Shown here: positions 1,980 through 34,292 of the stretch, one piece after another | How the letters are laid out: each line of letters opens with the position of its first letter | Position numbering within the stretch: the stretch's first letter is position 1 | Source of the DNA: Actinopolyspora xinjiangensis | Lineage (GTDB): Bacteria; Actinomycetota; Actinomycetes; Mycobacteriales; Pseudonocardiaceae | Assembly: GCF_900104475.1 (NCBI RefSeq) | Contig: NZ_FNJR01000006.1 | Span: 124,001 to 188,000, forward strand | Direction: 5' to 3' | DNA: 64,000 nucleotides | The notes under the pieces: model-generated | Database searches by the model: none | Told to the model about the DNA's origin: nothing | The model's input: the letters and a program-made list of their open reading frames with translations, nothing else | Program-made: the position numbers and the translations under genes

Positions 1980-3842
<1,863 letters not shown>

Positions 3843-3922
3843 CCGGGAAGCGCCTGACTCGTCCCGGCTCGTCCCGGAGGGCGCGGTTCGGGGCGTCGAA
3901 CCGGTAGTCACCGTCCCGGCGG

Positions 3923-3949: not shown

Positions 3950-3967
3950 ACGTCCGGGGCCGCGTTC

Positions 3968-5556: not shown

Positions 5557-6879
<1,323 letters not shown>

Positions 6880-6943
6880 GAGGGATTCCTCGGTTCGGGG
6901 AACCCCGGCCGTCCCGGACGGGCCGGACGGTTCTTCGAGCTCC

Positions 6944-6980
6944 CGCCGCGCGGCGGTCGGTGGTGAACCGCCGCGCGGCG
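6944..6980 (+). terminator. hairpin downstream of aceA
   Basis: 6944-6957 and 6967-6980 are perfectly complementary (14 bp, almost all G-C) with a 9-nt loop. It lies 65 bp after the aceA stop. Each arm is itself palindromic (CCGCCGCGCGGCGG). Confidence 0.7.
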
Positions 6981-7128
6981 CACGGGACTCCCTCCGCCGG
7001 GAGCCGGTGAGGCGCCATCCCGGTCTCACGGCGGAGGGTGATGGCAGTGGGCGCCGTACTCCTGCGGCGGCGCTCACCAAGACGCACCAGCGGCCCTGTG
7101 GCGGGGTGTGATGATCGCGGTGGTGCGA

Positions 7129-15162: not shown

Positions 15163-15939
15163 TCAGTCCCGCTCGGGTACCCAGTTGGGGGAGCGCTTCT
15201 CGGCGAAGGCCCGCATGCCCTCCTGCCCCTCCTCACCGGCGAAGTGCTCGGCGGACAGGCGCAGCATGTCGGCGAAGTTCCCGTCGAGGTCGTCCGGGCG
15301 CGGTCGGCGCAGCATCTCCTTGGTGGCCGCCATGGCGTTGGGGCCGCCCCTGGCCAGCATGTCGAGGTAGCGTTCCACGGCGCTGTCCAGCTCCGCCTCC
15401 GGAACGGCCGCGTTGAGCAGGCCGATCGCCTCAGCTCGCCGTGCGTCGAAGGTCTCGCCGGTCAGGAACAGCTCGTGGGCCTGCCTGGCGTGCAGCCGGG
15501 GTAGCACGGTCACCGAGATCACCGCGGGCACGACCCCGATGCGGACCTCGCTGAACGCGAAGGTGGCCCCCTCCGCCGCCACGGCGATGTCGCAGGCGGC
15601 CACGAGCCCGATGCCGCCCGCCCGCGCGGGACCGCCCAGTTTGGCCACCACCGGTTTCGGGCTGTTCCAGATGCGCTCCAGCAGGCCGGGAACCTCGTTG
15701 ATCCCCTGGTTCTCGGCGCTCTCCGAGCGGGACTCCTTGAGGTCCATGCCGGCGCAGAAGACCGTGCCGGTGTGCGTCAGCAGGATCACGCGGACCGCCT
15801 CGTCCGCGATCGAGCTCCGCAGCGCTTCCAGCAGTTCTCCGCGCAGCTGCGCGGACAGCGCGTTGCGGTTGTGCGGTGAGTCCAGGGTGATCGTGGCGAT
15901 GCCGCCTGCCACCTCGCGGTGCACGAGTTCGTCAGCCAT
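15163..15939 (-). CDS. enoyl-CoA hydratase/isomerase-family protein
   Basis: A 258-residue crotonase. Seen: ITLDSPHNRNALSAQLRGEL, oxyanion-hole residues in FCAGMDLKE, and GGPARAGGIGLVAACDIAVA with SEVRIGVVPAVIS. The first catalytic Glu of hydratases (GGG.E region) is not obvious, and the second position reads V-P-A, so it may be a lyase, isomerase or hydratase with altered chemistry. Monocistronic, with a TAGGCT -10 box 7 nt before ATG. Similar actinobacterial genes are annotated as enoyl-CoA hydratases; the substrate is unknown. Confidence 0.85.
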   Translation of the reverse strand: MADELVHREVAGGIATITLDSPHNRNALSAQLRGELLEALRSSIADEAVRVILLTHTGTVFCAGMDLKESRSESAENQGINEVPGLLERIWNSPKPVVAKLGGPARAGGIGLVAACDIAVAAEGATFAFSEVRIGVVPAVISVTVLPRLHARQAHELFLTGETFDARRAEAIGLLNAAVPEAELDSAVERYLDMLARGGPNAMAATKEMLRRPRPDDLDGNFADMLRLSAEHFAGEEGQEGMRAFAEKRSPNWVPERD

Positions 15940-17019: not shown

Positions 17020-17799
17020 ATGCTCGATCCTCAGGAGGAAGCCGCCGTCGCCGAGCAGTTCGGCGTGGCCCGCGCCCAGGTGCGCCGGGACCATCTCATC
17101 TCCCACCTGCTCGCGGCCATCAGTGACCGGCTGGCCGATGAGGTCGTCTTCTTCGGCGGCACCGCACTCTCCCGCACGTTGGCCCCCGAGGGGCGGCTGT
17201 CCGAAGACATCGACCTCATCGCTCGCAGCGGTCGCAGCAGCACAGCCGAGGTGCTCGAGACGACCCTGATTCGCGGGACCCGGCGCGAATTCCCGGGGCT
17301 ACGCTGGCAACCGGCACTCACCTCGGTCCGCGATGTGACGCCCGCCGTGCTCGTCGCCCCCGAAGGCCCGACCGTGCGCGTGCAGCTGCTGAGCTCCACC
17401 GGTTATGCGCCCTGGCCGACCGAGCGGTGCCGGCTCGTGCAGCGTTACAGCGACGCTGGACCCGCCGTGCTGCGTGTGCCTACCGCAGCCGCCTTCGCGG
17501 CCTGGAAAACCATCGCCTGGGCGCACCGCGCCACCTCACGAGATCTCTACGATCTCTGGCTGCTCGCCCGTCTCGGGGCCATCACCACCGAGGCGGCGGA
17601 GCTGTTCACACGCTTCGGTCCCACCAACAGGCCTCCGTCGAACGCGCTCTTCACCCACGCCCCCGACGAGGAAACGTGGCAGCGAGAACTCGCGGGGCAA
17701 ACCCACCTCGACATCACCGCGCACGCCGCCCTCGCCCACGTACGCGACGCCTGGCTCGACGCCCCATCACAGGAAAACCACGGCGGAAATGCTCGGTGA
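17020..17799 (+). CDS. AbiEii nucleotidyltransferase toxin
   Basis: A 259-residue protein with the nucleotidyltransferase motif FFGGTALSR (residues 44-52) and SEDIDLI (61-67) supplying the metal-binding acidic pair. AbiEii/MenT toxins transfer nucleotides to RNA, including tRNA acceptor ends, and cause reversible growth arrest, often as phage defence. The C-terminal half has W-K-and R-D-L-Y-D-L-W-L, the AbiEii lysine/DLxDL region. It starts 2 nt after abiEi, so translation is coupled. All key residues appear present, so it should be active. Confidence 0.9.
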   Translation: MLDPQEEAAVAEQFGVARAQVRRDHLISHLLAAISDRLADEVVFFGGTALSRTLAPEGRLSEDIDLIARSGRSSTAEVLETTLIRGTRREFPGLRWQPALTSVRDVTPAVLVAPEGPTVRVQLLSSTGYAPWPTERCRLVQRYSDAGPAVLRVPTAAAFAAWKTIAWAHRATSRDLYDLWLLARLGAITTEAAELFTRFGPTNRPPSNALFTHAPDEETWQRELAGQTHLDITAHAALAHVRDAWLDAPSQENHGGNAR

Positions 17800-18237: not shown

Positions 18238-19665
18238 GTGCTCGTGACGCTTTTCCGTTTTTGCGTTGCATCACTGTGGGAAACCCCGAACGCCACGACA
18301 ACGTTCACTTATCTGCGCGCCGGGTTGATGACGGAGAAGAAGCGTACCGCCGGTTCTTCGACGGAAACCGTCTCGTACGAGTACGACCCGGCGGGCAACC
18401 TGGTCTCGATGACCGATCCGAACGGGGAGACCAGCTACTCCTACGACGCCGGTAACCGGCTGATCTCCATGACCGACGCGAGCGGTCAGACCACGACATT
18501 CGGCTACAACGCAGCTGATCAGCGCACCAGCGTCACGTTCCCCGGCACCGGTAAGCAGATCACGACCTACGACGCCGCCGGGCGACAGACCGGCATCACG
18601 GTCACCGGCACCGACGGTGCCACGAAGTTCGAGACGAGCTACTCCTACGCCGCGTCGGACGGTTCGGACACCACCCTGCTGCAGTCCCGGAACATCGACG
18701 GCACCGGCAACAGCTACGACTACGACGCACTGCGACGCGTCACTTCCAGCGGATCGGGCAGTGGTTCGTACGGTTACGACACCGCCTCGAACATCACCAG
18801 TGGTCCGAGCGGAACGAGCTACACCACCAACGCCGCCGACCAGCTCACCCAGAAGGGAGACACCAGCTACAGCTACGACGGGGCCGGGAACCTGACCGGC
18901 AGCAGCAGCGGGGCGAGCTACGAGTACAGCGCGACCAATCAGCTGACCAGCGCGCAGCTGCCCTCGGGAAGCATCGACAAGGCGGTCTACGACACCACGG
19001 ACCAGGCCACGCCCCGTTCCCTGACCGAGACCACCGACGGCGACACGGTGCGACACGTGTTCACCCACACCGCGGTGGGGATCACCAGCATCGCCGACAA
19101 CGGGCAGCGCACCGGTTACTTCCGTGACCCATCCGGAAAACCGATCACCGAGGCCGGACCGGACGGTACGCGCTACAACGCGATCACCGATCAGCGTGGC
19201 ACGGTGCTGGCGTTGCTGGCCGAGGACGGCACCATCGTGGGGAGTTACGAGTACGGCACCTACGGTGAGACCATCGTCAGTGGGGAAGCCGCCAAGGAGA
19301 ACCCGTTCCGCTACACCGGCGGGTACCAGCTCGACACCGGTGACTACATGTTCGGCCATCGTTACTACGACACCGACACCAAGCGGTTCACCCAGACCGA
19401 CCCCAGCAGGCAGGAATCGAACCTCTACGCCTACGCCGAATGCAATCCGACCAACAAAACCGATCCTAATGGGCTTATATGCCAGCACGACCCCATTTAT
19501 AATAATCCGGCGCTCAACGGGGATGAACTTACCTGTGGAACCTACTCCTTGGGGTTCGCGTCGCTGGGCTTGCTTGCTGAATTCCACCCGATCAGCAGTA
19601 AGGCGAAATATCTCACGAGGGTTATTGCGGTCTCTGGGGCTGCTAATGGTGTGATGTCATGCTAG
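18238..19665 (+). pseudogene. C-terminal fragment of an RHS-repeat protein with variable tip
   Basis: The frame encodes 475 residues. From TTFTYLRAGLMTEKK on it consists of YD/RHS repeats (YDPAGNLVSMTDPNG, YDAGNRLISMTD, YDGAGNLTGS). It ends in the RHS core: RYTGGYQLDTGDYMFGHRYYD, then NLYAYAECNPTNKTDPNGL. The last 61 residues after DPNGL are the variable toxin-like tip, AT-rich and weakly hydrophobic (YSLGFASLGLLAEF). Full RHS proteins exceed 1500 residues and carry a secretion signal; both are missing here. I call it a displaced 3' cassette. The GTG at 18238 is only the frame's first start codon. Confidence 0.85.
18240..18280. repeat. duplicated gene end at the left edge of the RHS cassette
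   Basis: The 18-bp core TTTTCCGTTTTTGCGTTG (18251-18268) recurs at 20149-20166, with similarity on both sides. On the minus strand it would encode QRKNGKASRAPT and a stop. This matches QRKNGKTSPRA at the end of the complete small membrane-protein gene at 20122-20358. Confidence 0.7.
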
Positions 19666-19837
19666 TCTCTTTCGTGTGATCCAATAATCCCACTGGTTGC
19701 CTGCCTTGTGTTTGATCAGGGCAGGCTCCAATTGCTTTGACGACCCATGGTTGGTGAGTATTCTGGTGTCGTTGAGCGCTGTATCAGCATGGACGGCTCG
19801 ATGCTCGCTATGTGATTTACTTACGTGTTAGGTTTCT

Positions 19838-20089
19838 GTGGTGAAAAAGTTTGTTTCTTCGGTGAAAAAGTGGGCCAAAGAACCGGATGACCCGGGTAGT
19901 GTTGATTACTTGCTGTCTGGTGGTGCTTTCTATTTTTTGGTGGCAATTTTCTTTTGGTGGGGGTCGATAAATTTTGAGGAAGGTTCGAAGTACAGGCTGT
20001 TTGCGATAGTGTTTACGGCGATGGTGGCCGCCGTTTTGATCCGTTTTTCCGCAGCAAGGATAAAGAGAATTATAAAAAATAAAAAATGA
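19838..20089 (+). CDS. small two-helix membrane protein, possible RHS immunity protein
   Basis: An 83-residue basic protein. The N-terminus is MVKKFVSSVKKWAKEPDD, followed by two membrane helices (YLLSGGAFYFLVAIFFWWGS and FAIVFTAMVAAVLIRFS) and a Lys/Arg-rich end. Base composition is strikingly AT-rich against the neighbours, as is the RHS tip just upstream. A small gene directly after an RHS tip is normally the cognate immunity gene; that is the inference. GTG 19838 or 19841 may be the start; no clear ribosome binding site. Confidence 0.6.
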   Translation: MVKKFVSSVKKWAKEPDDPGSVDYLLSGGAFYFLVAIFFWWGSINFEEGSKYRLFAIVFTAMVAAVLIRFSAARIKRIIKNKK

Positions 20090-20485: not shown

Positions 20486-22906
20486 TCAGGAAGCGGGGTA
20501 GCGCTCGAACCACTCCGGGGTCTCCGGCGGGTTCGGGCCGAACTCCAGGCAGCCCTCCTCGGCGAGCGTTCGGACGGTTTCGCCGAGTTCGAGCTGCTGC
20601 GTCCAGTGCTCGGGGATCTCCTCGTCCGCCGACATCGCCAGCAGCGCGCCCGTCACCGCGCCGCACACCCCGCTGTTGCCGGAGTGGTTCACGGCGGTGC
20701 GCAGCCCGGCCGCGAAGTCCCCCTCGGCCACCAGCGCAGCGTACAGCCCGATCGCCAGCGCCTCGGCCGCGTTGAAGCCCGTGCCGAGGGTGCGTTCCAG
20801 CCGCTCCGGTTCGACGACGCCGGACTCGGCGAGTCTGCGGGCGGAAGCGATCCTGCTCGCCACGGGATCGTGCTCCGGGTGCCGCGACAACTCGGACTCG
20901 GCGGCGCCCACGGCCTCGGTGAGCCCCTCGCCGCGGGCCAACCGCGAGACGATCACCCCCAGCGCACCCGCGCTCAGCCGGGCGGTGGCGTGCCCGTGGG
21001 TGAGCGCCGCGGCCTCGGTGGCCACCCGGAAGGTCTCGTCCGCCCGGGGAGTCCAGAGCATCGCCGGGACCGCCCGCAGCAGCGCGCTGCTGCCGTCCGA
21101 GTCGCTGATCGGCTCCTCCGGCGAGCCCATGCCCTGCTGGCCCTTCGCGAAGGCGATCAGCGTGCGCATCATGGTCCTGCCGGGGCTGCGGGTCTGGAAC
21201 AGTCCGCGCAGCCCCACCAGCCAGCCGTCCGGTTCGGGCGCCACCGAGAGGAACTCCCCGGCGGCGCGGGGCCAGCTCAGGTGCTGGGTGTGCAGCCACC
21301 GCTGGTAGGCGTGCTGCACGTGCCGCGTGGGGCGCGGCACCCCGCCGAGCGTGCGGCGGGAGACCCCGGCACGGATGGTTCCCTCCAGCGTGAACAGCAG
21401 CAGCTGGGTGTCGCTGCCGATCCGGCCGGAGGGGTGCCCGGCGGGCACGTACTCCCGCAGTCCCTCCTCGCCGTAGCGGTCCCTGATCTCGCGCCAGCTG
21501 TCCCCGGTGACGGCCCCGCCCAGTGCCTCCCCGACGGCGCACCCCAGCACGGCCCGCGCGAAACGCGGTGCCCACGCCGAACCGGCGAGACCGGCAGCGC
21601 TCTCGCCGCTCCCACCGGCATCGTCCTCCTCCCAGCCGGAGAGCTCGGCGGAGTGCTCCTCACCGGCGGCGGGGAGCCCAACCGGATCCGGTCCGAACTC
21701 GGCGATCGCGGCCTCGGCCACCCGTTCCAGCAGCGGAGCTATCTCCGGCGTTCCGGGCGCGGAACCGGTCACCTCCTCCGGACCGCGCAGCGCGCCGAGC
21801 AGCTGGCCGCACAGCGTCGCGGCGGTGACGACGTCGCCGTCGTGGCTCGCGGCGAGGCGGATCGCCGTCGCCGGGTCGCCGGAGGCCGACAGCGCCGCGC
21901 GCAGCGCGATCGCGAGCACGCCGCTGCCGGTGCCGCCGTCGGCGGCCGCCACCAGGTTCCCACCGGTGGGCAGCGTGTTCGCAGGATGGAAGCGGGCCAG
22001 TCGCACCGCTTCGAAGAGCTCCCCCGAGATCTCCGCGTGGGAGCACTGCTCGATCGCGCGCTCCGCTGCTTCCGCCAGCCCCGCGCCGCGCAGCAGCCGG
22101 GACACCAGCACGGCGAGCACTCCGGCGGGCAGGTGGCCCCTCGGCCCACCGTGCGTGGTGGCCGCGATCTCGCTGCCGAGCCGGAAAGCGCTCCGGTCGT
22201 CCTCGGCCCAGAGCGCGGCGACCGCACCCAGCGGCACGGCTGCGGCCGCCTCGACACCGTTGCCGGGGTGCTCCGGAGTCCCCGGTGCCCTGCCCACGTC
22301 GAGCCGCGCCAGTTCCGCGAGCATCACGGGATCACCACCGCCGGAACCCACCAGCCTCGGATCGTTCGGCAGCCGATCGCGGGACGGTTCGGACCCGGAG
22401 CGCTCGACGGGGGCATCGACCGGAACCCCCCGGCTGCGCAGCCACCGCCGCTGACCGGCCAGCACCGCCCGCGCCGGATCGGCCCGCCCTCGTACCCGCA
22501 GCTCGGCGTGGGCGTCGGTCAAGCCGTCCAGCGCGCACAGCAGCGCGGCGGTGCGCTCCGTGCCCCGCATGTCGTGCCGCGCGGTGGTCTCCCCGATCGC
22601 GGCGCCGTGGAGCATCCCCAGCAGTCGTCCGGGGGAGCGGGCGACGAAGCCGTCCGCGTCGAACAGCCCGCCGGACATCCCGGAAGCCGGTCTCCCGGTC
22701 GGTGCGGTGCCGTCCGCGAGCCGGTGGCGCAGCCCGGTGGCCCAGAGAGGAGTGCTCGCGGACTCGGCCACGAGTTCCCGCCACCGCCGCACCAGCCACG
22801 ACGAGGGGGCGGCCGTCATCTCCGATTCGGCTCTCCGGGAGCGCGAGGCCTCGCGCTCCCGGAGAGCGGTCAGTAACCGCTTCTCGTCGTCTTCCATATC
22901 GTCCAC
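20486..22906 (-). CDS. protein with two degenerate ADP-ribosylglycohydrolase-like domains
   Basis: An 806-residue protein with no signal peptide. Domain B (about 450-802) aligns with the ARH domains of the upstream gene. It starts LGCAVGEALGGAV where active enzymes have GDALG, keeps GRIGSDTQLLLFTLEG, and has NHSGNSGVCGAVTGAL where they have NHSGDSDST. Domain A (about 92-405) is further decayed (LGMLHGAAIGE; ASHDGDVVTAATLCGQLLGAL). Most metal-binding Asp residues are lost, so catalysis is unlikely; it may bind ADP-ribose or a partner. The N-terminal EKRLLTALREREAS matches the linker before the third ARH domain of the neighbour, suggesting duplication. The same-strand gap to that neighbour is 224 bp. 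Confidence 0.8.
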   Translation of the reverse strand: MDDMEDDEKRLLTALREREASRSRRAESEMTAAPSSWLVRRWRELVAESASTPLWATGLRHRLADGTAPTGRPASGMSGGLFDADGFVARSPGRLLGMLHGAAIGETTARHDMRGTERTAALLCALDGLTDAHAELRVRGRADPARAVLAGQRRWLRSRGVPVDAPVERSGSEPSRDRLPNDPRLVGSGGGDPVMLAELARLDVGRAPGTPEHPGNGVEAAAAVPLGAVAALWAEDDRSAFRLGSEIAATTHGGPRGHLPAGVLAVLVSRLLRGAGLAEAAERAIEQCSHAEISGELFEAVRLARFHPANTLPTGGNLVAAADGGTGSGVLAIALRAALSASGDPATAIRLAASHDGDVVTAATLCGQLLGALRGPEEVTGSAPGTPEIAPLLERVAEAAIAEFGPDPVGLPAAGEEHSAELSGWEEDDAGGSGESAAGLAGSAWAPRFARAVLGCAVGEALGGAVTGDSWREIRDRYGEEGLREYVPAGHPSGRIGSDTQLLLFTLEGTIRAGVSRRTLGGVPRPTRHVQHAYQRWLHTQHLSWPRAAGEFLSVAPEPDGWLVGLRGLFQTRSPGRTMMRTLIAFAKGQQGMGSPEEPISDSDGSSALLRAVPAMLWTPRADETFRVATEAAALTHGHATARLSAGALGVIVSRLARGEGLTEAVGAAESELSRHPEHDPVASRIASARRLAESGVVEPERLERTLGTGFNAAEALAIGLYAALVAEGDFAAGLRTAVNHSGNSGVCGAVTGALLAMSADEEIPEHWTQQLELGETVRTLAEEGCLEFGPNPPETPEWFERYPAS

Positions 22907-23017
22907 GGCACCCGTGATCGTAGTCTGCTCGCGTTCGACCGGTCACCACAGCGGGGTGGAAAGCGCTCGAATCCTCGCGAGCCGGTTCGCCCGGCCACCA
23001 CGGGCACGAGTCGAACC

Positions 23018-23064
23018 CGATTCCGAAGTCCTCTCGGGACTGTTCGGGGAGGACCTCGGAATCG
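23018..23064 (-). terminator. 16-bp hairpin between the two ADP-ribosylglycohydrolase genes
   Basis: 23018-23033 pairs with 23049-23064 with one mismatch; the loop is 15 nt. No U tract on either strand. It may end the 1705-codon transcript or process an intergenic mRNA. GGTTCGA next to it looks like a T-loop, but no tRNA fold forms. Confidence 0.55.
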
Positions 23065-23130
23065 TTACACCATCCTCTCGCGGTTCTCCGGGACCGCCGG
23101 AACCCGGCGGGCGGCCGAGGTGCCCGGCAC

Positions 23131-26100
23131 TCAGCTTCGCTCGTCGTCGGCGACGTAGGCGCGCGCCCAGGAGGGGAGCTTGCCCTCCGGGGTGATGGCC
23201 GGAACGTTCCGCCGGTCGGCGAGCAGTCTGTCCAGGATCTCGCGCACCTCCAGCCGGTCCAGCCACTTCGCGGGCAGGGCGCCGCTCCCGCGTGAGACAC
23301 CGAGCACGGCACCGCAGATCGCGGCGGTGGCTGCGCTGTTGCCCGCGTGTCCTGCCGCCAGCACGACGGCGCGCCGCCATGAGTCCGGGTAGGACAGTGC
23401 GGCCAGCACGCCGATGCCGAGCGCGCCGGGGCCGTACCACCCCGTTCCCAGCGAACGCAGCGTTTCCGGGGTCGGCGTTCCCCGCCGGGCCAGTCGCACG
23501 GCCGAGCGCAGTGCCTCGCCCGTGTTCTCGGCGCCCGCGTACTTGTCCAGCTCGGCAAGGACCGTCCCCACCGCGTCCGCCAGCGGTTCGCCCCGCAGCA
23601 GCGCGTTGCTCAGCGCCGCCAGCGCCCCGGCGGGCAGGTAGCCGTCCGGAGAGCCGTGGGTGAGCGCGGCCGTTTCCGCGCCGAGGGTGAAGGCCGTTCC
23701 GACATCGGGGGCGAACAGTCCCAGCGGAGCCGCCCGCGCCGTGGCCAGGAACCCGGCGTCGTCGTTGGGCGGATCCGACGGGCTCGGGACGCTTTCCCGG
23801 GTGTGCGCCTCGGCCAGGGCGGCGGTACCCGCGTGGTCCGGAAAGCGCTGGGCGTTGAGCTCGGAGCACCGTGAGAGCCAGTCGGTCGTGGCCGGTGGCT
23901 CCACGGCCACCCCCTGCGTGCTGAGCCAGTGGCGCAGCGCCTCGTGCACGCTCGCCACGTGGGTGGTCTCCGCCGCGTGACGCCGTTCGAGCACCTCGGC
24001 GCGGATCGTTCCCGCCAGCACGAAGGCCAGCTGCTGGGTGATCGCGGTGCCGCGCCCCCTGCCGCCGAACGCCTCTGCGAGCTCGATCGATTCGGCCCGT
24101 TCCAGCCGGTCGGCCCGGCCGAGTATCCAGGGAGCGGCGAACGCGTCACCGCAGGCCGCTCCCAGCACGCAGCCCGCGAGCCTCTCGTCGAACTCCAGCC
24201 GCAGCGGGGTCTCCCGCACCAGCACCTCGGACCCGGCGGTCTCCTCGGACCGCTCACCGAACAGCAGTGCTGCCCGTTCCGCGCCGAAGGCCCGCACCGT
24301 GAGCTCGCGCAGTTCCCCGGCGAGCTCCGCCGGAACCTCCTCGGGGGAGTCCCGCAGCTTCCGCCACGCCGTGAGCAGCCGCGTCTCCTCCTCGGAGAGG
24401 TCCTCTTCGGGGAGTGCGTCGTCGGCGTCTTCGGACTCCTCCGGGGCTCCGTCCGTTCCCCGAGTCGGCGGGACCGTCGGGGAGGGGGTTTCCCCGCGGT
24501 CCTCTTCCGCCGGGGTGGTCTCGGCACCGTCCTCTTCCTCGGTGGTGGCCCCCTCCTCCCGCCGCTCGCTCATGCCGGTTTCGCGCTCCTCGCCGGTGTT
24601 CGCCGAACGCTCGGTGGTGCGGCGGTCCTCCTCGGCCACGGTGCTGACCGGTTCGTCCGCATCGGTCTGGGGGTCGGTGTCCTCGAACGAGGAGATGTCC
24701 GTCGCCGCGAAGTCCGCCGCCGTCGCGAACTCGGTCGCCGACCGGGAACTCCCCTCGGGCGCGGTGATCCCGGACGGGGTCTCGCTCCCGTCCGGCGCGG
24801 TTTCGAGGGAGGTGTCCCGTCGTTCGTCCTCGTGGTGCTCGGACCGCCCGGTCTCCCCGGCCTCGGGCTCGGCCTCCGCCGTGCTCGTTTCTTCCGTTCC
24901 CTCCCGGACTGGTTCGAGCTGTTCCTCACCCGCTTCGGGGAGAGCGGACGGCTCTTCGGCGTCGTGGTCTCCCGACGCCTCGGCCAGCGCTCCCGCCCGC
25001 AGCGGCCACCTCGGCGATGTAGCCGAGGCGCTCCCCCGATTCGGGACGGGGTAGCGCCGCTGCCACTCCGATTCGGGGGGTGTACCGGTGCCGAACTCCA
25101 GTTCGGCGTCCCGCGCGAGCCGTTCGATCACTTCGCGCAGTTCCAGCGCCGCCAGCCACTCCGCCGGAATCCGTTCGGCGGACAGGGCGCTGCCCATGAT
25201 GTTGCCGCAGACGGCGGCCGTGGAGTCGCTGTCGCCGGAGTGGTTGGCCGCCAGCCGGACGGCGTCGGCGAACGAATCCGGATGGCTCAGCGCCGCGTAG
25301 ACCGCTATGGCCAGGGCTTCCTCACCCACCCAGCCGCCGCCGAGCTGCTGTTCGATCACTTCTGGGCCCGGTGCGCCCAGTGAGACCAGCTCGCGCGCCC
25401 GCAACAGGCAGTCGGTGGTCTCCTCGTGCCCGTCCCAGTTCGACAGGTGGGACATCGCGGTGTCGAGGGCCTGCCGCAGTGTGTCCCCCTCCAGCAGCCT
25501 TCGGACCAGCACGGCCAGGGTTCCGGCGGGCAGGTAACCGCTGGGGTGACCGTGGGTCAGCACACCGGTCTCCGCTCCGATGCGGAAGACCTCGGCGGGG
25601 TCGGCCGACCACAGCGCGGCGGGGGCGGCACGCATGACCGCGCCACACCCCTTGGAGTCGTTCAGCGGGTTGTCCATCGAGCCGGGAGCCCTGCCCGCCG
25701 CGAAGCCGTGCAGCGCCTTCACGCAGGTGGTTCCCGGAGCGCGCCTGTTGAACAGTTCCTGCTGGGAGAGCAGCCAGCCGTCGGGCTCGGGGCAGCCGGG
25801 GCCGGTGACCTGCTCGCCGTCGAAGCCCTGCGTGTACAGCCAGCGCTGGTAGGCGTGCTGGACCAGCTCGACCGGATCGGTGGCGAGGCCGCGACGGAGG
25901 CTGTGACCGGCCCGGACGAGCCCCTCCATCGTGAACAGCGTCATCTGGGTGTCGTCGCTGATCCGGGCCGGGGCGTCGGTCCGCTCGAAGCCGGTGATCC
26001 CCTCGGGGCCGAATCGCTCCCGGATCGTGCGCATCGACTCGAACTCCACCGCGTAGCCCAGCGCGTCACCGACCGCTCCGCCCAGCAGGCAGCCGAGCAC

Positions 26101-28248
26101 GGGTTCGCGTGCCGCACCGGTCGTGGCGCGGTCGTGCCCGGCGGACACCTCGCTGCCCGTTGTGGACGGTGTCTCCGTCTCCGCTCCGTTCTCCGGGGGT
26201 GTCCCGGCGGGTTGGTCCACTCCTCCGGTCTCTTCGGACGGTTCGTCGGGGGAGTCCGTCTTCTCGTCCGGCGCGGCGTGATCCTCGGCGCTCGCCGCGA
26301 GCACCGCGGGGAAGCCGGTGCTGAACGGCAGTTCGGAGGTGTCCCGCCGTCCCGGGTACCGCTGCCGCCACGTGGGATCGTCCGGTGGCTCTGCGGTGAA
26401 CTCCAGCATCGCGTCCCGAGCGAGGCTCTCGATCGTCTCGCGCCCTCGCAGGTCGCGGAGCCAGGTCCCCGGCAGGGCCTTCCCGCCGTACCGGGCCCCC
26501 GCCAGAGCGCCGCAGATCGCTCCCGTGGAGTCGCTGTCCCCGGAGTGGTTGACGGCCAGCAGTACCGCGTCCGCGAGGCTTTCGGTGCTCAGCAGCGCGC
26601 AGACGGCGATGGACAACGCCTCCGGCCCGCTCCACCCGCCGCCCAGAGCGTCCTTGATCCGCTCCGGGGTGGGGCGACCGTGTTCGGCGAGGTTCACCGC
26701 CGCCGCGAGCGCCTGCTCGGTGGCGGACTCGGCCACGTGTTCGGACAGCACGCGCCTGGCCTCGGCCAGCGCCTCGTACGGCGTGGTCCCGTGCAGCAGT
26801 TCGCGCAGCAGCACCGCGAAGGTCCCGGCGGGCAGGTAGCCGTCCGGCTCGCCGTGGGTGAGCGCGGCGGCGCAGGCGGCCAGTTCGAACACCTCGTCGG
26901 CGTCGTCCGACCACAGTGCCGCCCCGACCCCGCGCAGCACCGCACCGTGGGTGCCGGAGTGGTAGAGCGGTCGCTCGATGGTGCCCGGCACTCCCGAGGA
27001 GGCGAACTCGCGCAGCGCGCTGATCGAGCTGCTGGCCGGCGAACGCACCGCGAACAGCTCCGGCCGTTCCACGAGCCAGCCGTCCGGTTCGGGGTGGGTC
27101 GTCGCGAACGGGCCCGCTACACGCGCCCAGGAGTACCCCTGGCTGTGCAGCCAGCGTTGCAGCGCCAGCTGCACCGCCGGCAGTGGTGTTTCCGCGACCC
27201 CATGGCGCACCGCGATGTGACCGCGGAGGAACCCTTCCAACGCGAACAGCATCAGCTGGCTGTCGTCGGTGAACGAGCCCTGCTGCTGTCCGTCGCGGTC
27301 GTAGTCGGTCACCCCTGCCGCGCCGTAGCGGTTGCGGATCTGCTCCACCGGGTAGAACTCCACCGGGGCTCCGAGCGCGTCACCCGCCGCGGCGGTGAGC
27401 AGGCTGCCGAGCAGGCGCCCTCCCCACTCGTCTGGTTCGGCTTCCCCGGTGAGCTCCCCCGTGGAGTCCGCCACCTGGGCCGTGGTGTTCCCGGCGGGAG
27501 TAGGAGGTGGGGGCGTCGGGGAAGTTTCGGAGGGTGGCTGTGCGGCCGTCGATCTCGCCGGAGTGGCGGGTGGAGGAGTGGGGGCCGGTTGGGGTGATCG
27601 CTGGTGGGTCCCGACGTCGGTGAGCACGGTGGTCGCTTCCGCACCGTTGCGCGGTGCGTTCGCGTGGGTCTGGAGCGGGATTCCGGCCGCCCGGATCAGG
27701 TCCTCGCAGGGAACGCGTGCCTTGGCGGGGCTGAGCGGGTTCACCTGTAGATCGGTGCCGACCGGTCGCAGCTCCGCCAGGGTCCTGCCGGACATGCGCT
27801 GCCAGCTGGTCCAGTTGTGCGGTAGGTGCCCCTCGGAGGTGAACACCTGCAGCTGGTTGCGCCCCGACTGGTGCTCGAAGGTGAACAGCCCTTCGCCCTG
27901 GGGTTGGGCGAACAGGATGAGTTCGGCCTCCAGCAGCGCGCCGAGCAGGGTTTGCGAGGGCGCGTAGCCGGTAGTGGTCAGTTGCAGCGCTCGTTCCACG
28001 TCGTTGGTGGGAGCGGGCAGCCGCAGTGCCACGGGGGAGGGGCGGTAGTTGGGGTTCGGGGAGAAGTCCGAGGTGATTTCCCCGTGCTCGTCGACGCGGA
28101 ATCCGCCGATGAAACCCCACGGGGGCACTTCCGCGTTGGGGTCGGTGAAGATCGGGTCCACCACGTACAGCCAGCTGTTCGGCTGTTGCGCGGCCTGTTC
28201 CCGCATCGCGGGTGTGATCACCGGTCGGCTAGGTTGCTGGCTGTTCAT
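23131..28248 (-). CDS. giant protein: T7SS-associated N-terminus plus three ADP-ribosylglycohydrolase domains
   Basis: A 1705-residue protein. Residues about 10-190 match the type VII secretion-associated family (AQQPNSWLYVVDPIF, VPPWGFIGGFRVDEHGEI, NYRPSPVALRLP). A Pro/Thr linker follows. ARH1 (276-632) has GDALG (289-293), FTDDSQ (326-331) and NHSGDSDST (567-575). ARH2 (716-1067) has GDALG (728-731), SDDTQ (764-768) and NHSGDSDST (1002-1010). An acidic linker (1070-1345) is followed by ARH3 (1355-1697), where TDDSQ is replaced by TAITQQ and NHSGDSDST by GHAGNSAAT. ARHs remove ADP-ribose from proteins or nucleic acids. Thus two domains look active and one decayed. GGGGGAG abuts the ATG. Confidence 0.88.
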   Translation of the reverse strand: MNSQQPSRPVITPAMREQAAQQPNSWLYVVDPIFTDPNAEVPPWGFIGGFRVDEHGEITSDFSPNPNYRPSPVALRLPAPTNDVERALQLTTTGYAPSQTLLGALLEAELILFAQPQGEGLFTFEHQSGRNQLQVFTSEGHLPHNWTSWQRMSGRTLAELRPVGTDLQVNPLSPAKARVPCEDLIRAAGIPLQTHANAPRNGAEATTVLTDVGTHQRSPQPAPTPPPATPARSTAAQPPSETSPTPPPPTPAGNTTAQVADSTGELTGEAEPDEWGGRLLGSLLTAAAGDALGAPVEFYPVEQIRNRYGAAGVTDYDRDGQQQGSFTDDSQLMLFALEGFLRGHIAVRHGVAETPLPAVQLALQRWLHSQGYSWARVAGPFATTHPEPDGWLVERPELFAVRSPASSSISALREFASSGVPGTIERPLYHSGTHGAVLRGVGAALWSDDADEVFELAACAAALTHGEPDGYLPAGTFAVLLRELLHGTTPYEALAEARRVLSEHVAESATEQALAAAVNLAEHGRPTPERIKDALGGGWSGPEALSIAVCALLSTESLADAVLLAVNHSGDSDSTGAICGALAGARYGGKALPGTWLRDLRGRETIESLARDAMLEFTAEPPDDPTWRQRYPGRRDTSELPFSTGFPAVLAASAEDHAAPDEKTDSPDEPSEETGGVDQPAGTPPENGAETETPSTTGSEVSAGHDRATTGAAREPVLGCLLGGAVGDALGYAVEFESMRTIRERFGPEGITGFERTDAPARISDDTQMTLFTMEGLVRAGHSLRRGLATDPVELVQHAYQRWLYTQGFDGEQVTGPGCPEPDGWLLSQQELFNRRAPGTTCVKALHGFAAGRAPGSMDNPLNDSKGCGAVMRAAPAALWSADPAEVFRIGAETGVLTHGHPSGYLPAGTLAVLVRRLLEGDTLRQALDTAMSHLSNWDGHEETTDCLLRARELVSLGAPGPEVIEQQLGGGWVGEEALAIAVYAALSHPDSFADAVRLAANHSGDSDSTAAVCGNIMGSALSAERIPAEWLAALELREVIERLARDAELEFGTGTPPESEWQRRYPVPNRGSASATSPRWPLRAGALAEASGDHDAEEPSALPEAGEEQLEPVREGTEETSTAEAEPEAGETGRSEHHEDERRDTSLETAPDGSETPSGITAPEGSSRSATEFATAADFAATDISSFEDTDPQTDADEPVSTVAEEDRRTTERSANTGEERETGMSERREEGATTEEEDGAETTPAEEDRGETPSPTVPPTRGTDGAPEESEDADDALPEEDLSEEETRLLTAWRKLRDSPEEVPAELAGELRELTVRAFGAERAALLFGERSEETAGSEVLVRETPLRLEFDERLAGCVLGAACGDAFAAPWILGRADRLERAESIELAEAFGGRGRGTAITQQLAFVLAGTIRAEVLERRHAAETTHVASVHEALRHWLSTQGVAVEPPATTDWLSRCSELNAQRFPDHAGTAALAEAHTRESVPSPSDPPNDDAGFLATARAAPLGLFAPDVGTAFTLGAETAALTHGSPDGYLPAGALAALSNALLRGEPLADAVGTVLAELDKYAGAENTGEALRSAVRLARRGTPTPETLRSLGTGWYGPGALGIGVLAALSYPDSWRRAVVLAAGHAGNSAATAAICGAVLGVSRGSGALPAKWLDRLEVREILDRLLADRRNVPAITPEGKLPSWARAYVADDERS

Positions 28249-28915: not shown

Positions 28916-29851
28916 ATGCGCAAGACTTTCGCGATAGCGGCGGCGATGCTGACCATGCTCGGCGGCCTGGGCAGCGCCGCCGCAGTGGAGAGGTCCGGCT
29001 CCGAAGCGCAGTCACCCCGGGGTGGCCACCAGAGCCAGGAGGGGCTGTTCACCAGCGCCACCGGAATCCTGGTGCGTGACGACCAGGGCTATGCCCTGGA
29101 GGCAACGGACGACGGCACGAGCTATCGGCTCACCGGGGCACCGGGAATGCTGCTGCCCTACGCGGGCGATCGGGTCAAGGTGACCGGAAGCGAGCCCGGG
29201 CGGGACTCGGAAACCGAGCGGCTCGCCGTCAGAACGGTGGAGCCGGTCGCGCGCGGCGAATCGTTGCCGCGGCGCGGCACCACGCGACTGAACTTTCGGG
29301 TGAGCACCGACGGTGTCATCAGCGGCAGTACCACGTTCTACGGGTTGTTCGGCACGCCCGGGCCCGATCCGCGCGGCGAGGTCGCCGACATCGAGGAGCT
29401 GGGCGCGGTCGCGCTGCGCGACGACGACGGTGACGGTGTCTACTCCGCTCCGATCGGCCTGCGCGCCGGGCAACGTGTCGTCGCACGCATCGCCATGGGC
29501 AACAGCGTCGTGGGGCCGAGGGAGGTGATCCATCCGCGCAGTGTCGTCCAGCGGGACAACACCGTGGTACTGGACGGTGACACCACCGTCTCCACCGAGT
29601 ACACCCCCACGCGTTTCTGCGGTGACGTGCCCTTCACCCCGAACTCGGACCACGGTGCCTTCGGCATCAAGACGAACGGAGTGGACTGCGACACCGCTCG
29701 CGACGTGGCGGCCGATGCCGAGAACCGAATCGGGCGGGACTACCGCAGCCACGATTTCGAGTGCTCGGCGACCGAGGCGGGCGGCCAGCTCGGTGGCTAC
29801 GACTACACCTGCCGTGACGAGGAGCGCGAGATCACCTTCTCCGCCTCCTGA
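28916..29851 (+). CDS. secreted protein with C-terminal four-cysteine domain
   Basis: A 311-residue protein with a clear Sec signal peptide: MRKT then FAIAAAMLTMLGGLGSAAA, cleavage expected near residue 24. The middle (about 40-225) reads as beta-rich (LNFRVSTDGVISGSTTFYGL), unidentified. The last 75 residues carry four cysteines in an order common in actinobacterial exported proteins: FCGDVPF, GVDCDTARDVA, DFECSAT, YDYTCRDEE, closing with EITFSAS. Two disulfides are expected. Function unknown. GAAAGG 17 nt upstream is a weak ribosome binding site. Confidence 0.7.
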   Translation: MRKTFAIAAAMLTMLGGLGSAAAVERSGSEAQSPRGGHQSQEGLFTSATGILVRDDQGYALEATDDGTSYRLTGAPGMLLPYAGDRVKVTGSEPGRDSETERLAVRTVEPVARGESLPRRGTTRLNFRVSTDGVISGSTTFYGLFGTPGPDPRGEVADIEELGAVALRDDDGDGVYSAPIGLRAGQRVVARIAMGNSVVGPREVIHPRSVVQRDNTVVLDGDTTVSTEYTPTRFCGDVPFTPNSDHGAFGIKTNGVDCDTARDVAADAENRIGRDYRSHDFECSATEAGGQLGGYDYTCRDEEREITFSAS

Positions 29852-30191: not shown

Positions 30192-30950
30192 CTAGGTGGC
30201 GTGAGCCAACAACCCGGGCCTCGCGGCCAGCGCCGCCTCGTAGCGCTCGATGACCAGCTCGGCCAGTTCCGGTGCCGCTCCCATCGTGTCCGCCAGCACG
30301 GGACGCTCGACGTGTTCGGCGGCCCGTTCGAGTACCCGGTCGGGCAGCCTGCCGGGAGCCAGGAACCACGAGCCGACGGCGAACCGCCGCGCCCCCCACG
30401 CGCGCAGTCGCTCCAGTGCGGCGGGGACGTCCGGCTCGGCAGCGGCGGCGAACGCCGCCACGGCCCCCGCCCAACGGCTGTGTCGTTGCCAGACCTCGGC
30501 CACCTCGGAGACCAGCCGGTTGGCGGACTCGTGCGCCGAACCGGCACCGGCCAGCACGACGCCGAGTTCCGGATCACCCGGATCGGCACCACCCTCGAGC
30601 AACCGCCGCCACGCCGCCTGTCGTAGCCTGCGGTCCGGGCCCAGCACCTCGGCGATCCGTAGCCGCAGCAGTGGATTGCGGCGTTCGGCCTCGCGGGCCG
30701 CGTTCGGGATGTCCACGCTCGCGTGGTAGGCGTGGCCGAGCAGCAACGGGACGATCACCGCCTGCCCGCTCCCCTCGGCGTGCAGGGCGTCCAGCACGTC
30801 GCCGAGCCCGGGAGCGGACAGTTCCAGGAAAGCGGTCCGTACGTCCAGTTCGGGGCGAACGGAGCGGACCACGTCCAGCAGCTCCCGGATCGTGGCCGCC
30901 GAACGTGGGTCACGACTGCCGTGCGCCACCGCGACCAGCGGTGCGTTCAT
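30192..30950 (-). CDS. sirohydrochlorin chelatase family protein (CbiX/SirB type)
   Basis: A 252-residue two-repeat chelatase. The N-terminus LVAVAHGSRDPRSAATIREL carries the catalytic His of the AHGS motif, and LLLGHAYHASVDIP carries the second metal-binding His. The second half is degenerate, as in long CbiX/SirB proteins. It inserts ferrous iron (or cobalt) into sirohydrochlorin. As the last gene of the sulfate-assimilation operon (16 nt after cysN), it most likely makes siroheme for the sulfite reductase at the operon head. M. tuberculosis has a similar chelatase next to its cysH/nirA pair. Confidence 0.9.
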   Translation of the reverse strand: MNAPLVAVAHGSRDPRSAATIRELLDVVRSVRPELDVRTAFLELSAPGLGDVLDALHAEGSGQAVIVPLLLGHAYHASVDIPNAAREAERRNPLLRLRIAEVLGPDRRLRQAAWRRLLEGGADPGDPELGVVLAGAGSAHESANRLVSEVAEVWQRHSRWAGAVAAFAAAAEPDVPAALERLRAWGARRFAVGSWFLAPGRLPDRVLERAAEHVERPVLADTMGAAPELAELVIERYEAALAARPGLLAHAT

Positions 30951-30966
30951 CCGCGAACTCCGGTCG

Positions 30967-32322
30967 TCATCGAGTCACTGCCGAGGCCAGCGGGTCCAGC
31001 GGAACACCGATCAGCCCCGCGGCGAGCGTGGAACCGTCGGAGGGGTCGAGCACGATGAACGAACCGGTGCGCCTGCTGTCGGCGTACGCGTCGATCGGCA
31101 ACGACTCCGAGGTCCGGAACCGGACCTTGCCGATCTCGTTGAGCTCCAGTCGCTCCGGGGCATCCACACTCGACAGTTCCTGCTCGTCGAACCGGGTGGC
31201 CAGTTCGGTGGCCATCGCCTGCACCGTCCGAGTGCCGTGCTTGATCAGCACCTTGGCACGCGGTGAGAGTGGCTTCTCGGCGAGCCAGCAGACCGTGGCG
31301 TCGAACTCGTCGGTCACCGAGGGCTGGTTGTCCGCGGAGACGATGACGTCGCCCCGCGCGATGTCCAGGTCGTCCTCGAGCAGCACCGTGATCGAACGTC
31401 CGGCCGCGGCGCTCTGTGCCGGTCCGTCCGGAGTGTCCACCATGGAAACCCTGCTGCGTGCTCCACCGGGGAGCACCACCACTTCGTCACCCTCGTTGAC
31501 GACCCCGGCGGCCACCTGGCCCGCGTAACCACGGTAGTCCGGGTACTCGGCGGTGCGCGGCCGGATCACGTACTGCACCGGCAGCCGGAACGGAACGTCG
31601 TGCGGGTCCGGAGCGACCGGGACGGTCTCCAGGTGCTCCAGCAGCGCTGGTCCCTCGTACCAGGGGGTGCGTTCGGAACGCTCGACGACGTTGTCACCGT
31701 GCAGCGCGGAGACCGGGACCGTCACCACGTCCTCGTCGGAGTAGCCGAGAGCCCTGGCGTGCCGCGCGAACTCCTGGGCGATGGCGGTGTGCACCGACTC
31801 GTCGAAGTCGACCATGTCGATCTTGTTGACCGCCAGCACCAGGCGGGGCACTCCCAGCAGCGCCAGCACCGCGGCGTGCCTCCTGGTCTGCTCCACCACG
31901 CCCTTGCGGGCGTCGACCAGCAGCACCGCGAGCTGCGCGGTGGAGGCACCGGTGACGGTGTTCCTGGTGTACTGCACGTGACCGGGGGTGTCGGCCAGCA
32001 CGAAAGTGCGCTTGCCAGTGGCGAAGTAGCGATAGGCGACATCGATGGTGATGCCCTGCTCGCGCTCGGCGCGCAGCCCGTCCACCAGCAGCGACAGGTC
32101 CGGCGTGCTGAGTCCGCGGTCGGCGCTGGCGCGGTGCACCGCGTCCAGCTGGTCGGCCAGCACCGACTTCGTGTCGTGCAGCAGCCGTCCCACCAGCGTG
32201 CTCTTGCCGTCGTCCACCGAGCCCGCCGTGGCCAGTCGCAGCAGGTCGGTGTGCACCGGAAGTGCCACTTCCGTTCCGCTGTCCGGGGCGAACCTGGTGA
32301 GGGTTTCGGTCTCGTCGCTCAT
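30967..32322 (-). CDS. cysN: sulfate adenylyltransferase large subunit (GTPase)
   Basis: A 451-residue EF-Tu-like GTPase. Seen: GSVDDGKSTLVGRLLHD (G1), GITIDVAYRYF (G2), DTPGHVQYTRN (G3) and NKIDMVD (G4), then two beta-barrel domains. With CysD it couples GTP hydrolysis to activation of sulfate to APS. There is no C-terminal APS-kinase domain, unlike mycobacterial CysNC; this fits direct reduction of APS by the adjacent CysH. TGATG overlap with cysD means coupled translation. Confidence 0.96.
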   Translation of the reverse strand: MSDETETLTRFAPDSGTEVALPVHTDLLRLATAGSVDDGKSTLVGRLLHDTKSVLADQLDAVHRASADRGLSTPDLSLLVDGLRAEREQGITIDVAYRYFATGKRTFVLADTPGHVQYTRNTVTGASTAQLAVLLVDARKGVVEQTRRHAAVLALLGVPRLVLAVNKIDMVDFDESVHTAIAQEFARHARALGYSDEDVVTVPVSALHGDNVVERSERTPWYEGPALLEHLETVPVAPDPHDVPFRLPVQYVIRPRTAEYPDYRGYAGQVAAGVVNEGDEVVVLPGGARSRVSMVDTPDGPAQSAAAGRSITVLLEDDLDIARGDVIVSADNQPSVTDEFDATVCWLAEKPLSPRAKVLIKHGTRTVQAMATELATRFDEQELSSVDAPERLELNEIGKVRFRTSESLPIDAYADSRRTGSFIVLDPSDGSTLAAGLIGVPLDPLASAVTR

Positions 32323-33284
32323 CAGAAGTAGCCCTCTCGCTTACGGTCCTCCATGGCTGCCTCGGACATCCTGTCGTCGGCTCGGGTCGCCCCTCGTTCG
32401 GTCAGATGGCTGGCCGCGACCTCGGCGATCACGTCGTCCACCGTGTACGCCTCGGACTCCACCGCGCCCGTGCACGAGCCGTCCCCGACGGTGCGGTAAC
32501 GAACCGTCTTCTCGTGGACCTCCTCGTCCTCGCGTGGCCCGCCCCACGGGCCGGAGGTGAGCCACATCCCGTCGCGGTGGAAGACCTCCCTGCGGTGGGC
32601 GTAGTAAAGCTTGGCGAGTTCGATCTTCTCGCGCTGGATGTAGCGCCACACGTCCAGCTCGGTCCAGTTGGACAGCGGGAAGACCCGCATGTGCTCGCCC
32701 GCCCGGTGCTTGCCGTTGTACAGGTTCCACAGCTCGGGCCGCTGCCTGCGCGGGTCCCACTGACCGAAGGAGTCCCGCAGGCTGAAGACGCGCTCCTTGG
32801 CGCGGGCGCGTTCCTCGTCACGCCTGCCGCCGCCGAAGACGGCGTCGAAACGGTTCTGCTCGATCGCTTCCAGCAGGGGCTGCGTCTGCAGCGGGTTGCG
32901 CGTGCCGTCCGGGCGTTCGCTGAGCCTGCCGTCGTCGATCCAGTCCTGGACCCTGGCCACCACGAGCCTCAGGTCGTGGCGGCTGACCAGCTCGTCGCGG
33001 AACTGCAGGACTTCCTCGAAGTTGTGGCCGGTGTCCACGTGCAGCAGGGGGAACGGCACGGGAGCGGGACGGAACGCCTTCAGTGCCAGGTGCAGCAGCA
33101 CCGTGGAATCCTTGCCCCCCGAGAACAGGATCACCGGGCGATCGAACTCCCCAGCGACCTCCCGGAAGATGTGGATCGCCTCGGACTCCAGCGCATCGAG
33201 GTTGTCCACTTGTGGCGGTGCCTCGGATGTCGCCGGATCCTCCGGCAGGTCGAGATTTTGATCCATGATCGCTTCCGTCGTCAT
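32322..33284 (-). CDS. cysD: sulfate adenylyltransferase small subunit
   Basis: A 320-residue PP-loop ATP pyrophosphatase. PP motif LFSGGKDSTVLLHLALKAF lies near residues 53-72. Family blocks HVDTGHNFEEVLQFRDE, FDAVFGGGRRDEERARAKERV and FPLSNWTELDVWRYIQ are all intact. It forms APS from ATP and sulfate with CysN. ATG 33284 is used; an internal ATG (residue 7) is possible. The gap to the upstream cysH is 94 bp, the only sizeable gap in the operon. Confidence 0.96.
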   Translation of the reverse strand: MTTEAIMDQNLDLPEDPATSEAPPQVDNLDALESEAIHIFREVAGEFDRPVILFSGGKDSTVLLHLALKAFRPAPVPFPLLHVDTGHNFEEVLQFRDELVSRHDLRLVVARVQDWIDDGRLSERPDGTRNPLQTQPLLEAIEQNRFDAVFGGGRRDEERARAKERVFSLRDSFGQWDPRRQRPELWNLYNGKHRAGEHMRVFPLSNWTELDVWRYIQREKIELAKLYYAHRREVFHRDGMWLTSGPWGGPREDEEVHEKTVRYRTVGDGSCTGAVESEAYTVDDVIAEVAASHLTERGATRADDRMSEAAMEDRKREGYF

Positions 33285-33378
33285 CAGCGTGCCCTTACAC
33301 AGTTACCAGTTCATCCCATCGGGTGATGTCCTGGTGTCGGTCCCGCCCGGCGTTCCCCGGAGTTCCCCAGCGTGCGGA

Positions 33379-34104
33379 CTAAGCGTGCAGTCCGCATTCC
33401 GTCTTCGTGCTGCCCGCCCAGCGGCCGCTGCGCCGGTCGGCGCCCGGAGCCGGCTTGGCGGTGCACGGCTGGCACCCGATCGAGGGATACCCGGCGGGGA
33501 CCAGCGGATTCACCAGCACATTGTGCTCGGCGATGTAATTGTCCATGTCCTCGTCGGTCCAGGCAGCGAGCGGATTCACCTTGACGAGGTTGTTGCGTTC
33601 GTCCCAGGTCACGAGGGGAGTGTCGGCCCTGCTCGGGGAGTCCACCCGACGTAGCCCGGTGATCCACGCCTCGTACCGGGCCAGCGTGTTACGGAGCGGA
33701 ACGACCTTGCGCAGGTGGCAGCACCGTCCCGGGTCCCGTTCGTAGAGCCGGGGACCCTCGGTGGCGTCCTGCTGTTCGACGGTCTGATCGGGCGTCGCGT
33801 TGATGATGTTGACGTCGTAGGTCTGCGAGACCGCGTCCCTGGTGCCGAGCGTCTCGGCGAAGTGGTAGCCGGTCTCCAGGAACAGCACGTCCACACCCGG
33901 CCTGACCTTCGAGACGAGGTCTATCAGCGAAGCGTCCTCCATGTTGGAGGCGACGATCAGGTTCTCGCCGAACGTGCGCACGGCCCAGTCGAGTACCTCC
34001 GAGGTGCCGGCCTCGGCCAGCTGCTCGGAGGCCTCCTCCGCGAGGGCACGGAGCTCGTCGTCACCACGTCGAATGCCGATGTGGGAGGTGTTGTCGACGG
34101 TCAT
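33379..34104 (-). CDS. cysH: adenylylsulfate (APS) reductase, 4Fe-4S type
   Basis: A 241-residue reductase. The four iron-sulfur cysteines are visible in RCCHLRK and IGCQPCT, which separates APS reductases from PAPS reductases that lack the cluster. The catalytic cysteine is in KTECGLH at the C-terminus. It reduces APS to sulfite with thioredoxin. Start MTVDNTSHIG overlaps the preceding stop (ATGA); a longer upstream frame was rejected on that basis. No cysC (APS kinase) is present, consistent with this type. Confidence 0.95.
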   Translation of the reverse strand: MTVDNTSHIGIRRGDDELRALAEEASEQLAEAGTSEVLDWAVRTFGENLIVASNMEDASLIDLVSKVRPGVDVLFLETGYHFAETLGTRDAVSQTYDVNIINATPDQTVEQQDATEGPRLYERDPGRCCHLRKVVPLRNTLARYEAWITGLRRVDSPSRADTPLVTWDERNNLVKVNPLAAWTDEDMDNYIAEHNVLVNPLVPAGYPSIGCQPCTAKPAPGADRRSGRWAGSTKTECGLHA

Positions 34105-34292
34105 GGTTCTTCGTCCTCCTCGGTCAGCGCCAGCCCGGCCAGTCGTACCGTGAACACACGGCGGCACGCCTGGCATTTCCACGCGCCCACGGGTTCAGCC
34201 TCCGGTGTGAGTTCCTCGTCACCGCAGTACGGGCAGTAGAACGGAACAGCCCTGCCCTCGGGACCCGCCTCCGCCGATTGCCCCCCACTCAC
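34101..34292 (-). CDS. 63-residue zinc-ribbon protein in the sulfite reductase operon
   Basis: A small protein with two CxxC pairs: FYCPYCGDEEL and WKCQACRRVF, a rubredoxin-like or zinc-ribbon fold. An acidic tail ends EEDEEP. It overlaps sir by 4 nt (GTGA) and cysH by 4 nt (ATGA), so all three are translationally coupled. Streptomyces coelicolor has a small unnamed gene in the same place. It may bind zinc or iron and assist sulfite reductase or electron delivery; that is inference. Confidence 0.8.
   Translation of the reverse strand: MSGGQSAEAGPEGRAVPFYCPYCGDEELTPEAEPVGAWKCQACRRVFTVRLAGLALTEEDEEP

Follow-up and report, generated by a model that had tools for sequence, protein, structure and literature searches.

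A conserved two-gene array of five ADP-ribosylglycohydrolase domains joined to an NF033532 domain in Actinopolyspora xinjiangensis, a candidate guard against ADP-ribosylation

The window, by which we mean the whole 64,000-nucleotide stretch of the Actinopolyspora xinjiangensis genome analysed here, carries two adjacent genes on its minus strand. P1 (23131-28248, 1705 aa) contains, in this order, an NF033532 (lone7para_assoc) domain at 27694-28179 (residues 24-185), the ADP-ribosylglycohydrolase (ARH) domains ARH1 (26470-27408) and ARH2 (25159-26094), an acidic linker (24229-24996) and ARH3 (23269-24174). P2 (20486-22906, 806 aa) lies 224 bp behind P1 and contains ARH4 (21773-22561) and ARH5 (20612-21553), all of these features being on the minus strand as well. 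The initial annotation, made from the sequence alone, had called five ARH domains across two genes and a type VII secretion-associated domain, and both calls are borne out. In a Pfam scan with PF03747 (cut-off 26.2), P1 has three matching stretches, which sum to 575.9 bits, and P2 has two, which sum to 252.8 bits, and in a genome-wide profile search every one of the five domains lies above that cut-off: ARH1 scores 209.6 bits, ARH2 254, ARH3 141.5, ARH5 181.6 and the weakest, ARH4, 83.8 in a partial match (profile 49-283). By their sequence all five belong to the ARH family, the decayed ones included. The NCBIfam model NF033532, ‘type VII secretion system-associated’, scores 143.5 bits in P1 against a cut-off of 85. 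Both genes are long open frames, with a third-position G+C of 0.87 (P1) and 0.90 (P2), and the array is real and no assembly artefact, because the same genes stand in the same place in independent genomes.

The metal sites were read in 15 array orthologues, at residues that we take, from general knowledge of the family, to be the metal-binding ones. ARH1 keeps GDALG...E, TDD and DSDS in all 15. ARH2, whose motifs are intact in the window copy, keeps GDALG...E in 15, SDD in 12 (SDE in the other three) and D-S-D in 14, and in ARH3, ARH4 and ARH5 both acidic motifs are incomplete in every orthologue. The claim that ARH1 and ARH2 alone have intact metal motifs therefore extends to the orthologues, for ARH2 nearly throughout. 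The initial annotation had also described a stepwise loss of metal-binding residues; the loss in the last three domains is there, but it is uneven. In ARH4, the most decayed domain, the second motif still has its first acid in 15/15 orthologues, ARH5 retains one acid of the first motif, likewise in 15/15, and one copy of ARH3 (that of L076) retains one acid of the second motif. On these motifs ARH1 and ARH2 probably have an enzyme-type metal site, and ARH3, ARH4 and ARH5 probably lack one. A P-x-W-x-x-R-Y-P type tail had been assigned to all of the domains, which proved too generous: W-x-x-R-Y-P ends only ARH1, ARH2 and ARH5, the full P-x-W form is confined to ARH1 and ARH5, ARH3 has a decayed form, and ARH4 has no tail motif.

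The array is a stable feature of the genus. All ten same-genus genomes, the source genome included, have an NF033532 match inside a frame of 1594-1811 aa and, besides it, a frame with ARH domains that is 799-842 aa long; this second frame shows two ARH places in nine genomes and at least one in G007, both being present in L075, which is apparently the same genome as G007. Across the family, 135 of 150 genomes give some match to the NF033532-ARH1 profile, and at least 23 of the 150, from seven genera, have NF033532 and ARH in one frame of 1041-2042 aa, a count that covers the P1-type fusion only and includes some genomes in which it takes the form of two adjacent pieces. This breadth disposes of the worry, raised with the initial annotation, that the joining of the N-terminus to the ARH domains might come from the assembly. 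Among the matches listed, two further genomes of another genus have shorter fusions, the frames being 861 and 929 aa long.

At 16 of 16 array loci compared, cbiX stands on one side and an enoyl-CoA hydratase gene (ech) on the other, and sir-cysH-cysD-cysN, a sulfate-assimilation group with cbiX as its last member, precedes cbiX as far as the sequence compared extends; one of these loci, G022, holds only two ARH domains. In the window, Pfam and the conserved gene order place the sulfite reductase gene and the genes that we presume to be cysH, cysD, cysN and cbiX upstream at 30192-36001, and ech downstream at 15163-15939, all on the minus strand. The number of ARH domains in the gap between cbiX and ech is one in G019, two in G022, seven in G010 and five in the others compared. 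An independent origin of the NF033532-ARH fusion, with at least two changes, was considered and dropped, since the fusions of G010 and G019 occupy this same gap; a single fusion in Saccharothrix (L079) is without these flanks. Inheritance of the array at this locus is vertical, and the locus is under strong constraint. That it might be a mobile element was rejected, as none of 43 matching plasmid records covers 80% of the NF033532-ARH1 query.

Other genes of the neighbourhood are less constant. A divergent gene with a DUF5818 match (28916-29851), upstream of P1, is matched at 8/8 other Actinopolyspora-type loci and at 0/7 array loci of other genera. An AbiEii-type nucleotidyltransferase gene (17020-17799) has as its neighbour a 190-aa gene in which Pfam finds no family, and the two recur at L072, L074 and L109, which are further array loci. 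Between P2 and ech there is a low-G+C RHS fragment, 18238-20089 overall, which has a short tail and is followed by an 83-aa frame. The initial annotation had named RHS systems as one possible source of toxins; the fragment proper (18238-19665) holds RHS repeats only, by Pfam, and is matched at 2/15 other array loci, and on these grounds an RHS partner for the array was rejected.

The source genome (33 contigs, 5.04 Mb) has eight ARH places, five of them in the array. Of the remainder, two share a 1459-aa frame on contig C14 and one lies in a 361-aa frame on C19. The 1459-aa frame (6486-10790 of L009) forms a second array, between rpoC and rpsL. Among six loci chosen because they hold such two-ARH frames, both flanks are present in four (the source genome, G007, G003 and G022) and one flank in two, rpoC in G014 and rpsL with fusA in G021, in the sequence compared; G014 and G021 also have NF033532-ARH fusions at this locus. 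One further NF033532 place in the source genome is on contig C16. A stand-alone NF033532 gene lies near genes that we take, from their N-terminal sequence, to be purF- and purM-like (9454-10221 of L128, and L130, L132 and L133), in this genus and two others.

Elsewhere, NF033532 is found directly behind ADP-ribosyltransferase toxin domains. The initial annotation had suggested that the array protects against ADP-ribosylating toxins, and what stands of this tie is that its parts are linked to such toxins at other loci, without the RHS connection. Of 61 related genomes, 13 have Scabin-like domains (PF22596), with 15 such places in all, and NF033532 lies within 1 kb of four of these places (G009, G016, G006 and G040), against 0.006 expected by a rough estimate that ignores gene clustering; the match in G040 is weak, in a 69-aa frame, and is probably a remnant. 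NF033532 follows the giant gene in two more, at the gene's stop in G021 and about 1.4 kb on in G036, and a further pair in G036 is about 7 kb apart. When these 15 loci are taken with 23 from a further search, seven of the 38 have NF033532 within 1.5 kb of the Scabin-like domain, in each case downstream and on the same strand, with none upstream and none on the opposite strand. Ten of the 23 are frames of 216-279 aa, which are probably stand-alone secreted enzymes. In a sample of 30 PF03496 loci from a longer list, NF033532 lies within 1.5 kb of the domain at one, again downstream on the same strand, so that 31/38 Scabin-like loci and 29/30 PF03496 loci are without it at that distance. An ARH domain within 1.5 kb of a transferase domain was found at 0/68 loci.

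Where the pairing exists, some of the toxins carry marks of type VII secretion. By Pfam, one toxin flanked by NF033532 (L168) has a T7SS signal and another (L169) a WXG100-like domain, each with a C-terminal Scabin-like domain, and the toxin and NF033532 frames overlap by 4 bases in L169 and by 8 bases in L167. In a single case, the L147 cassette of G026 (1790-7026), a toxin with a T7SS signal and an ADPrib_exo_Tox domain is directly followed by an ARH gene and then by NF033532. That the array is a known anti-phage system was rejected, as PADLOC recognises neither P1 and P2 nor the pair in L147. One open frame in L170 (11295-13637) joins a TNT toxin domain to an NF033532 domain. In L175 (from G010) our own profiles give a Scabin-like/NF033532 pair in two frames in neither of which Pfam finds a family, and Pfam places a TNT toxin close to NF033532. 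Other NF033532 genes have giant genes nearby that contain a glutamine deamidase and a weak glycosyltransferase match, and with such toxin-like domains in giant genes the link of NF033532 is not to transferases alone.

Profile-profile comparison adds a likeness between the two partners. A stretch of about 33 residues within the NF033532 domain (28030-28128, minus strand; residues ~26-58) aligns with the last part of Scabin-like domains at 94.9% probability when all rows are used. Toxin-linked NF033532 rows give 95.3% against the type VII-side set and 36.2% against the short Streptomyces-type set; rows without a toxin link give 83.1% and 15.2%. Among the controls, the PF03496 set and ARH reach 0.1-0.3%, 20 column shuffles 0.1-0.4% and the reversed profile 2.1%, and the highest score among 50 further shuffles is 20.5, the real comparisons scoring 25.9-53.9. 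The shared stretch could reflect mimicry, descent of a short piece from one ancestor, or a tail motif that both have. A confident AlphaFold2 model of the NF033532 domain has a mean pLDDT of 94.5 and a pTM of 0.82; against solved structures the domain gives a borderline best E of 0.0061, and the aligned stretch alone 0.45.

We tentatively propose, with somewhat less than even confidence, that P1 and P2 make up a guard against ADP-ribosylation in the cytoplasm, a blocker fused to an eraser and built from immunity parts. We read them in this way because their parts match two known ways of stopping ADP-ribosylating toxins. The place of NF033532 behind toxin domains elsewhere, two plasmid regions among them, speaks for this reading, as do the L147 cassette, the nearness of its ARH domain to ARH1 in the ARH tree, and the precedent of the Bxa toxin. 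The NF033532 domain would bind an ADP-ribosylating toxin, or the toxin's target, and so block the toxin; ARH1 and ARH2, if active, would strip ADP-ribose from modified protein; and the three decayed domains would hold the ADP-ribosylated substrate, by binding its ADP-ribose, or serve as a scaffold. The immunity parts would have been fused first and have become core genome afterwards, and their purpose would be protection from the toxins of other cells. Immunity against a toxin of the cell's own was rejected, as the source genome has neither a Scabin-like nor a PF03496 match. Scabin-like matches are absent from six of the ten same-genus genomes, the source included, and in the PF03496 (ADPrib_exo_Tox) search of the source genome the control sequences gave no matches either. 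Scabin-class toxins would be expected to leave ADP-ribose on guanosine in nucleic acid. For ARH1 and ARH2, protein is a likelier substrate than nucleic acid marked in this way, because an ARH-like Streptomyces enzyme was described as not reversing guanosine RNA ADP-ribosylation (PMC11833690).

Several results weaken the guard reading. Two toxin models found no partner in the source genome; the nearly frozen NF033532 domain is unlike an immunity protein in an arms race; most Scabin-like, PF03496 and plasmid loci lack the toxin/NF033532 pairing; ARH beside a transferase comes down to the one L147 cassette; the L175 toxin frame, Scabin-like by our own profile, is without a Pfam family; and the result for the Streptomyces enzyme concerns the very type of mark that Scabin-class toxins should make. 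A larger claim, which we consider rather unlikely in its full extent, is that NF033532 is a widespread immunity module against type VII ADP-ribosyltransferase toxins, carrying the toxins' C-terminal end, and that Pseudonocardiaceae-type actinobacteria, by fixing it in fusion with two erasers and with three readers of ADP-ribose, have made it a permanent defence in their core genome, another array being placed between rpoC and rpsL.

The strongest competitor to the guard is a regulator in the cell's own housekeeping, in which the array would de-ADP-ribosylate an endogenous protein or nucleic acid, NF033532 would recognise a conserved cell partner, and immunity would be only the origin of the parts; we regard this as a serious, if doubtful, possibility. 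In six within-genus pairs, analysed with our own Nei-Gojobori script, the dN/dS of the NF033532 domain is 0.00-0.08, and between genera the domain keeps ~80% identity, with ~60% for ARH1. This very strong constraint, together with the unvarying locus, suits a housekeeping role nearly as well as a guard role. The same role is favoured by the lack of a Scabin-like or PF03496 partner in the source genome, by the stand-alone NF033532 gene near purF/purM-like genes, and by the second ARH gene at rpoC-rpsL. Against it, the number of ARH domains at one and the same locus varies from one to seven, a spread not usual in a dedicated regulator, and the substrate is hypothetical, the search for an endogenous ADP-ribosyltransferase having covered two toxin families.

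NF033532 might instead be an adaptor in the secretion of giant type VII substrates, its fusion bringing the ARH array to the secretion route and keeping toxins, or toxin-modified things, clean before export. Nine Streptomyces plasmid regions, drawn from 43 and 16 matching records, bear on this. In two of them (L241 and L242, which of the four NF-only matches listed come closest to the window in identity) a Scabin-like match lies just upstream of NF033532, in L242 a short 84-aa frame; in the other seven there is none within the stretch read. In six of these seven, NF033532 stands behind a very large same-strand gene, immediately so in three and separated from it by one gene in the other three; only the last part of these genes was read, and two are annotated ‘lonely Cys domain’. 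This position without a Scabin-like match is the reason why the domain may serve secretion. In the seventh region NF033532 lies ~5 kb from eccCa, as one NF033532 of G021 does from an EccC gene. At the array itself, the proximity to ESX genes that the initial annotation had wanted mapped is not found: the array is on contig C13, on which no WXG100 match was found, and the only EccC match above the cut-off in a genome-wide search, together with a WXG100 pair, is on C14. We hold an adaptor role to be improbable for P1.

That the decayed domains are useless leftovers, the array being two enzymes plus drift, is less probable again by a wide step. In the same six pairs ARH4 does evolve fast (dN/dS 0.30-0.63), and the linker between ARH2 and ARH3 faster (0.59-0.84). 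ARH3 (0.18-0.49) and ARH5 (0.05-0.43) are nevertheless under purifying selection, the intact ARH1 and ARH2 having values of 0.13-0.24 and 0.09-0.26, and all three decayed domains stand at identical positions in the 15 loci compared. A tree built from 76 ARH domains gathers every one of the five array positions into a clade of its own, with support of 100/97 or better; the array is therefore older than the genera compared. The set nearest to ARH1 comprises seven domains, four fused to NF033532, one from L147 and two from G015, joined to it with support of 89/86, which is not full, within a wider set at 99/97. Least credible of all is that P1 and P2 are themselves secreted effectors: the ‘type VII-associated’ label speaks for it, but Pfam and NCBIfam scans find no WXG100 or T7SS-signal domain in either protein, and the genes lie in core-genome synteny.

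If the array is indeed an ADP-ribosylation guard, NF033532, a family named after its neighbourhood, would gain a function, immunity parts could turn into a permanent multi-domain guard, and pseudo-ARH domains, kept in 15/15 orthologues, would be probable ADP-ribose readers. Whichever way this is decided, what these actinobacteria ADP-ribosylate becomes a testable question. In the literature searched, which left most subscription journals outside and was seen in part, we found neither the five-domain array nor its fixed place described, and likewise nothing on the second array or on NF033532 being linked to transferase toxins; immunity enzymes of the ARH family are already known, as are polyimmunity proteins.

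Among solved structures, the best relative of the NF033532-ARH1 profile is DraG (2woe, E 7.1e-19), the dinitrogenase reductase-activating glycohydrolase, which is a single domain with a known target; P1 scores 146.3 bits with the DraG model TIGR02662, below its cut-off of 337.05. A further sequence relative is chain 6dre (E 1.8e-16), which we take to be Tri1. Tri1 is reportedly a bifunctional immunity protein against Tre1, an ARH with an extra toxin-facing part. P1 is not a Tri1, because it reaches 113.5 bits with the model NF041672, whose cut-off is 490, and its extra part is, unlike that of Tri1, the NF033532 domain. Also related are the ARH immunity enzyme Imm-ARG and the polyimmunity proteins, which have tandem immunity domains in one protein (PMC3482391); P1 and P2 likewise contain ARH domains in tandem, with a putative immunity role. 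Imm-ARG is described as strictly associated with toxin transferases (PMC3482391), whereas the array is vertically inherited and no transferase toxin was found among its ten neighbouring genes by Pfam. The Bxa toxin of Bacteroides stercoris is countered by two immunity proteins, the ARH1-type hydrolase BAH and the blocker Bsi (PMC11699363). These are two small, separate genes next to the toxin, unlike the candidate blocker and five ARH domains of the array, set in two core-genome genes with no toxin found beside them. The division of labour that we propose for P1 and P2 would, by analogy, be that of the Bxa system, with one part removing ADP-ribose and another blocking the transferase.
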